A stretch of 36,817 nucleotides of DNA from a virus. Of this stretch, positions 35,940 through 36,017 are shown one piece after another. Each line of letters starts with the position of its first letter. The first letter of the stretch is position 1. Made by a program: the position numbers and the translations under genes. The notes below the pieces were generated by a model. It made no database searches, had not been told where the DNA came from, and saw only the letters and a list, made by a program, of their open reading frames with translations. The stretch spans positions 1 through 36,817 of the IMG/VR virus record IMGVR_UViG_3300047157_000120; one strand, 5' to 3'.

Positions 35940-36017
35940 TTAGTCTGAGTGATTAAAAATGTAACAAGTCACCTCAAATCCAAATCTTAAAACTGTTGCT
36001 TCTGGTTTTACCCACAT
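35940..36017 (-). CDS. pqqA: PqqA-like peptide (PQQ precursor)
   Basis: 25 residues, ATG 36017 to TAA 35940, behind AAAGGAAATC. It starts MWVKPEA and has RFGFEVTCY. PqqA peptides typically read M-W-x-K-P...R-x-G-F-E-V-T-x-Y, and the crosslinked residues are Glu15 and Tyr19; here E is residue 15 and Y is residue 19. The peptide would be modified by host PqqE (radical SAM) with PqqD, then processed by PqqB and PqqC; none of these is encoded in this window. It is the first gene of the rightmost minus-strand unit, with a Fur-like box about 225 bases upstream. The cysteine at residue 18 is variable in the family. Confidence comes from motif position, not a database search. Confidence 0.82.
   Translation of the reverse strand: [25 protein letters not shown]

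Follow-up and report, generated by a model that had tools for sequence, protein, structure and literature searches.

A phage-encoded PqqA-family precursor peptide gene and its recurrence among phages of methylotrophic bacteria

PQQ (pyrroloquinoline quinone) is derived from the ribosomally made peptide PqqA, of which a glutamate and a tyrosine are joined by PqqE together with PqqD before later enzymes excise and finish the cofactor (PMC10906245). Replacement of the PqqA glutamate by aspartate, or of the tyrosine by phenylalanine, abolishes PQQ, and PqqA is made at about 20 times the level of PqqC or PqqE (PMC2294125). Members of the Methylophilaceae carry 3-12 pqqA genes, whereas each of the other pqq genes is typically present once (PMC4109929). 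PqqA and methanol dehydrogenase have also been reported in T4-like phages of Lake Baikal, which were assigned to the Methylophilaceae and for which the same role as that considered here was proposed, while phage P19250A was said in that paper to encode none of these methylotrophy genes (Coutinho 2020, PMC7678222). In viruses of reservoir sediment, pqqA, pqqE and pqqD were placed among the viral auxiliary genes and filed under phosphate solubilisation (PMC13188868), the relevant passages of that paper analysing neither the peptide nor methylotroph phages.

The DNA analysed here (the window) is a single virus record, 36,817 bases long, in which genes for an SU10-type portal, a terminase, Erf and a tail collar were recognised. 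Its first and last 339 bases (1-339 and 36479-36817) form a direct repeat with 4 mismatches, so that probably little of the genome, about 36.5 kb in size, is missing. A pqqA gene with its start ATG at 36017-36015 is located near one end (Table 1). The gene sits in a phage genome and not in host DNA, because the portal and terminase genes and the terminal repeat are present in the window and because the phage isolates MEP301, MEP401, MEP402, Venkman, P19250A and Melnitz also carry pqqA. It resembles the PqqA of Lake Baikal VP_266 in being encoded by a phage assigned (in the case of the window, probably) to the Methylophilaceae and in its proposed support of methanol dehydrogenase; the VP_266 group, however, also encodes methanol dehydrogenase, whereas the window phage is small, has an SU10-type portal and carries pqqA alone.

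An earlier note on this DNA, made from the letters alone, had read the locus as a minus-strand PqqA-like gene of 25 codons with a good ribosome-binding site, and the reading frame, the motifs and the ribosome-binding site were all borne out. M-W-x-K-P occupies positions 1-5 of the peptide and G-F-E-V-T-x-Y positions 13-19, so that a Glu-x-x-x-Tyr core with the classical Glu15/Tyr19 spacing lies at the positions joined by PqqE. The profile search that the note had suggested placed the peptide in the PqqA family, above the curated cut-offs of both Pfam PF08042 (PqqA; 24.1 bits, cut-off 21.1, E 3.6e-5) and the equivalog-level NCBIfam TIGR02107 (21.5 bits, cut-off 20), and its length of 25 amino acids is within the range of about 23-39 residues given for the family (PMC2294125). 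Translation from an in-frame TTG upstream of the ATG would give a product of 44 amino acids; in the relatives, unlike this longer option, the start is an ATG that precedes the tryptophan by one to a few codons. A search for the DNA pattern of the peptide gave a single match in the window and 0 matches in 100 dinucleotide shuffles; this result and the pN/pS values given below ruled out chance coding.

The window copy is divergent, having Cys18 and the tail IFNHSD, with an HSD end in place of NK/NR, and it scored near the bottom of all copies (22-24 bits, where almost every other copy reached 33-41), the copy of relative L250 alone being lower. W2, P5, R11, G13-F14-E15-V16-T17, Y19 and N22 are common to the window peptide and the host PqqA of the Methylophilaceae; the window peptide differs in V3, E6, V9, L10, C18, I20, F21 and its HSD end, is two residues longer, and is phage-encoded. 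The last three codons are uncertain and are to be read with care, because several window genes are split across frames in a way that suggests indel errors or decay. Glu15 and Tyr19 lie well within the part that can be aligned to relatives.

Table 1. Position of pqqA and neighbouring features in the window
Feature	Coordinates	Strand	Remarks
pqqA, 25 codons plus TAA	35940..36017	-	PqqA-family precursor peptide; profile matches, homologues
Glu15 codon, residue destined for PQQ	35973..35975	-	Sequence reading
Tyr19 codon, second residue destined for PQQ	35961..35963	-	Sequence reading
Ribosome-binding site AAAGGA	36025..36030	-	Seven bases before ATG; relatives have similar sites
Hairpin directly 3' of pqqA	35885..35937	-	L251 and L258 have a similar one
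HNH_3 endonuclease gene between pqqA and portal	35505..35864	-	Found in window, L252, L254; not in L251, L258
Gene for the SU10-type portal protein, with which the structural genes downstream of pqqA begin	33281..35395	-	Bait for the pqqA-blind search for relatives
Long intergenic region upstream of pqqA	36018..36817	-	Conserved with L250 and L251

The HNH_3 gene lies outside the pqqA unit, since its presence varies from relative to relative (Table 1); it is gained or lost among close relatives in the manner of a mobile endonuclease. An Rfam search for an RNA element upstream or downstream of pqqA gave no match, and a search for a sigma-70 promoter in the upstream intergenic region gave nothing convincing above chance. 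Palindromes close to TGAGAATNATTCTCA were found at 17 sites in the window at ≤3 mismatches, against 5.9 expected, including 36241-36255, 36533-36547, 36663-36677, 55-69, 185-199, 3484-3498, 3513-3527 and 10008-10022, the ones near 55/185 recurring as those near 36533/36663 because both copies of the terminal repeat contain them. These TGAGAATNATTCTCA-like palindromes resemble Fur boxes and could be operators of a phage repressor, and similar ones are found upstream of pqqA in L250 and L251. The genes for ribonucleotide reductase (12933-14866), the terminase large subunit (32064-33271) and a C5 cytosine methylase-like protein (9793-10562) are each split over several frames, which suggests assembly indel errors or decayed genes. 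A tRNA-Tyr (gta) gene is present at 8132-8217, and none was found in the genomes of MEP401, Venkman, P19250A, MEP301 or MW202481; PQQ uses a tyrosine, and a tie between the two is speculation.

Relatives of the window were gathered by their portal protein, blind to pqqA. A PqqA match was present in all seven portal-clade contigs of ≥30 kb, the window included, and in 20 of 34 portal-clade records when fragments were counted. Both Glu15 and Tyr19 were retained in each of the 17 loci (window included) at which a near-portal copy could be read, the nearest to that of the window being the L252 copy, while the PqqA of L250 fell below the curated cut-off (19.4 bits; aligned part VWTKPVANEMRWGFEICMYVLNK). 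The same mini-gene, which the earlier note had advised seeking in related phages, is thus present there, and no interruption of its frame was seen. A count of farther portal relatives (45-48% identity) lacking pqqA was dropped, since it covered ≤6 kb upstream of the portal and a whole-contig search of the long ones found pqqA elsewhere. Three Manatee Spring phages of more distant portal (35-45%) gave no pqqA, and the gene is therefore not universal to the SU10-type portal group.

The window peptide was also screened against 50,697 phage records using tblastn, giving matches in 12 records, and repetition with a consensus query returned the same list. Among these were all nine Methylophilales/Methylophilaceae phage records (MEP301, MEP401, MEP402, Venkman, P19250A and four of Melnitz), where "all nine" denotes the records retrieved and the matches exclude MEP431-434, HIM624-A and Venkman EXVC038S. 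A tenth phage record was that of an uncultured spring-water phage (MW202481). Two Acinetobacter phage records were rejected as they look like bacterial DNA, with pqqB adjoining in the one that was opened. On searching full phage records with the Pfam PqqA profile, 7 of 7 tested were above the curated cut-off. P19250A has pqqA (KX815270, 28097-28153, minus strand), contrary to the statement in PMC7678222.

The earlier note had remarked that genes this short are usually missed, and pqqA, although present in ten phage-database records, is annotated in none of them; Melnitz EXVC044M and MW202481 have an annotated hypothetical gene over pqqA, but on the wrong strand. It was probably left out as too short for standard gene callers. 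Text searches gave no mention of PQQ in the papers describing Venkman and MEP301 and no "pyrroloquinoline" in the MEP401/402 paper, while the Melnitz paper has PQQ once, as a medium supplement. No report of a wider spread of pqqA in methylophages was found in the open-access papers that were searched. Phage PqqA was thus known before, and its extent across methylophages appears to be the new part.

The phages with pqqA span several lineages with few or no genes in common. No open reading frame was common to MEP401 and P19250A at E below 1e-5, P19250A had 3-4 in common with any other pqqA phage, and Melnitz belongs to the T4-like Kyanoviridae. The place of the gene also varies: in MEP401 it heads the structural genes, which read leftwards, and in Venkman it lies among the recombination genes, on the opposite strand.

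A pattern scan of IMG/VR found pqqA in at least 120 contigs, and a clean short open reading frame with ATG and ribosome-binding site was present in all 120 of the matches listed; these and the phage counts depend on the search pattern and the collection. A broad scan for other PqqA types gave 22 contigs. Those with enterobacterial PqqA were not counted as phage, as the gene was mostly within about 450 bases of the end of the stretch and is probably host DNA beside prophages. Methylobacterium-like PqqA peptides were present in contigs of 18-266 kb (L340, L344, L349, L352 and L356), and may be either the pqqA of phages of other methylotrophs or host DNA.

Phage pqqA is clearly under purifying selection. 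Among 106 distinct viral genes, pN/pS was 0.17 over all codons and 0.27 at the codons left free by the search pattern, and it was 0.21 in the portal-clade set, against 1.8 and 2.7 when this DNA was read in its two other frames; the counts are uncorrected and take related sequences as independent, so that the values are descriptive, while their direction is plain. The glutamate and tyrosine were retained in 106 of the 106 genes, both residues having belonged to the search pattern in this wider set.

The window phage probably infects an OM43-like methylotroph of the Methylophilales (OM43/LD28-like), since its nearest isolates infect Methylophilales. The window portal is 46% to that of Venkman, the product of 10703-11332 is 72% to a MEP301 protein, and the ribonucleotide reductase pieces are 54-86% to MEP401, where a DNA match was also found. 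Candidate hosts do carry pqq genes, a point which the earlier note had wished to see checked: PqqA was found in 149 of 150 Methylophilaceae genomes and PqqE was over cut-off in 13 of the 14 tested. The mean of about four pqqA copies per genome (149 rows), with commonly three in the streamlined genomes of 1.2-1.3 Mb, agrees with PMC4109929, and the copies are scattered, usually stand-alone genes with a terminator of their own. The two commonest phage peptides, both 23-residue forms, are identical to the commonest host peptides found (host scan with a related pattern). PqqE was over cut-off in none of 48 pqqA phage records; the window itself has one PqqA match and no PqqE, so that the note's statement that no other pqq gene is present holds as regards these two.

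One pqqA phage also carries genes of methanol oxidation. Contig G200, a 72-kb phage contig (the record of L054, and also of L331 and L363), has in its region of about 34-43 kb a PQQ methanol/ethanol-family dehydrogenase of 624 amino acids (34.0-35.9 kb; 607.9 bits, cut-off 480), a formate dehydrogenase alpha (36-39 kb; 885 bits, cut-off 666) and, at 41.9 kb, a pqqA that is soon followed by a SoxYZ-like, quinoprotein-dehydrogenase-associated carrier (197.5 bits, cut-off 140). The WDYDG motif of the dehydrogenase suggests the XoxF type. Much of the route from methanol to CO2 is thus found within one phage. Among the other genes of G200 are one for a head maturation protease, one matching a virion structural protein and some resembling tail-fibre genes; the contig is probably T4-like and resembles the Lake Baikal phages of Coutinho 2020 (PMC7678222).

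It is our view that phage pqqA probably encodes a genuine PqqA which host enzymes would convert to PQQ, so loading XoxF and sustaining methanol oxidation during infection. Host PqqD would hand the phage peptide to the radical SAM enzyme PqqE, by which Glu15 and Tyr19 would be joined; host PqqF/G, PqqB and PqqC would complete PQQ; and the cofactor would load the host XoxF methanol dehydrogenase, such that methanol oxidation, the main energy source, could run on during phage replication. In the infected cell the enzymes would persist, while fresh peptide would need ongoing expression, and pqqA alone could therefore sustain or raise PQQ. A phage would carry only this gene because one peptide is consumed per PQQ, the enzymes being catalytic and already in the host. 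The earlier note had suggested that PQQ-dependent dehydrogenases are boosted in infection; from the sequence comparisons we infer the same, including expression and processing of the peptide and benefit by way of a target that can be named, the XoxF-type methanol dehydrogenase. A familiar parallel is psbA of cyanophages, a phage auxiliary metabolic gene that is a copy of a high-turnover host component. Phage pqqA is likewise a copy of a high-turnover host component that would sustain host energy metabolism; unlike psbA, its product is a substrate peptide that a cofactor pathway uses up, not an enzyme or photosystem protein. In Gluconobacter, overexpression of pqqB lifted PQQ more than that of pqqA (work cited in PMC7936290), which counts against PqqA as the limiting factor.

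The PQQ made from the phage peptide could instead serve another quinoprotein, such as a sugar or other alcohol dehydrogenase, or act as an antioxidant, since PqqA by itself is silent on the enzyme that uses the cofactor and a methanol dehydrogenase was found in only 1 of 48 pqqA phage records. Many pseudomonads make PQQ, yet pqqA matches were absent from the 105 records of Pseudomonas phages whose portal is related, and in annotated records the gene is limited to methylotroph phages and the one uncultured spring-water phage, the pqqA of the Acinetobacter records looking bacterial. As xoxF was, in addition, always the top-abundance transcript in an OM43 isolate, dominating its expression (PMC5120137), we regard such a use as unlikely. 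We also think it rather improbable that the peptide is a decoy or throttle which binds PqqD/PqqE and is poorly processed, so that PQQ falls and the methanol metabolism of the host is shut down. The differing C-terminus of the window copy (Cys18, IFNHSD) would suit a decoy, and a non-productive binder is conceivable since the leader and core of PqqA bind different partners (PMC10906245), but most phage peptides are identical or near-identical to the hosts' own and retain the glutamate and tyrosine throughout, and the pairing of pqqA with XoxF-like and formate dehydrogenases in G200 would be pointless under a methanol shutdown.

That pqqA is neutral cargo, a host gene caught in the manner of transduction and of no benefit to the phage, is very improbable: it is small and cheap to carry and the hosts offer several copies, which stand alone at scattered sites, each with its own terminator, but it is under purifying selection, is present in 7 of 7 long clade contigs and recurs in unrelated phage lineages at different positions. 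The earlier note had further allowed that the peptide might feed a different radical SAM peptide (RiPP) system and not PQQ synthesis. No support was found for this, the match to a sactipeptide family being sub-threshold (15.4 bits, cut-off 42) beside an equivalog-level PqqA match and likely hosts that have PqqE, and we consider it highly improbable.

The reading of phage pqqA as a genuine precursor for host PQQ synthesis can be taken further, to a gene that is near-obligatory in phages of aquatic methylotrophs and repeatedly acquired by unrelated lineages, with PQQ supply as a bottleneck of infection; phages would then routinely steer aquatic methanol oxidation through a gene of 23-25 residues that annotation misses. 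We judge the case for this wider claim to be evenly balanced. OM43 and LD28 bacteria, whose phages are abundant, play an important part in the consumption of methanol in lakes and coastal seas. Should almost every such phage carry pqqA, the supply of the precursor of one cofactor would be a common requirement of infection, and phages would be able to take from a cofactor pathway just the gene for the substrate that is consumed, leaving the enzymes to the host.
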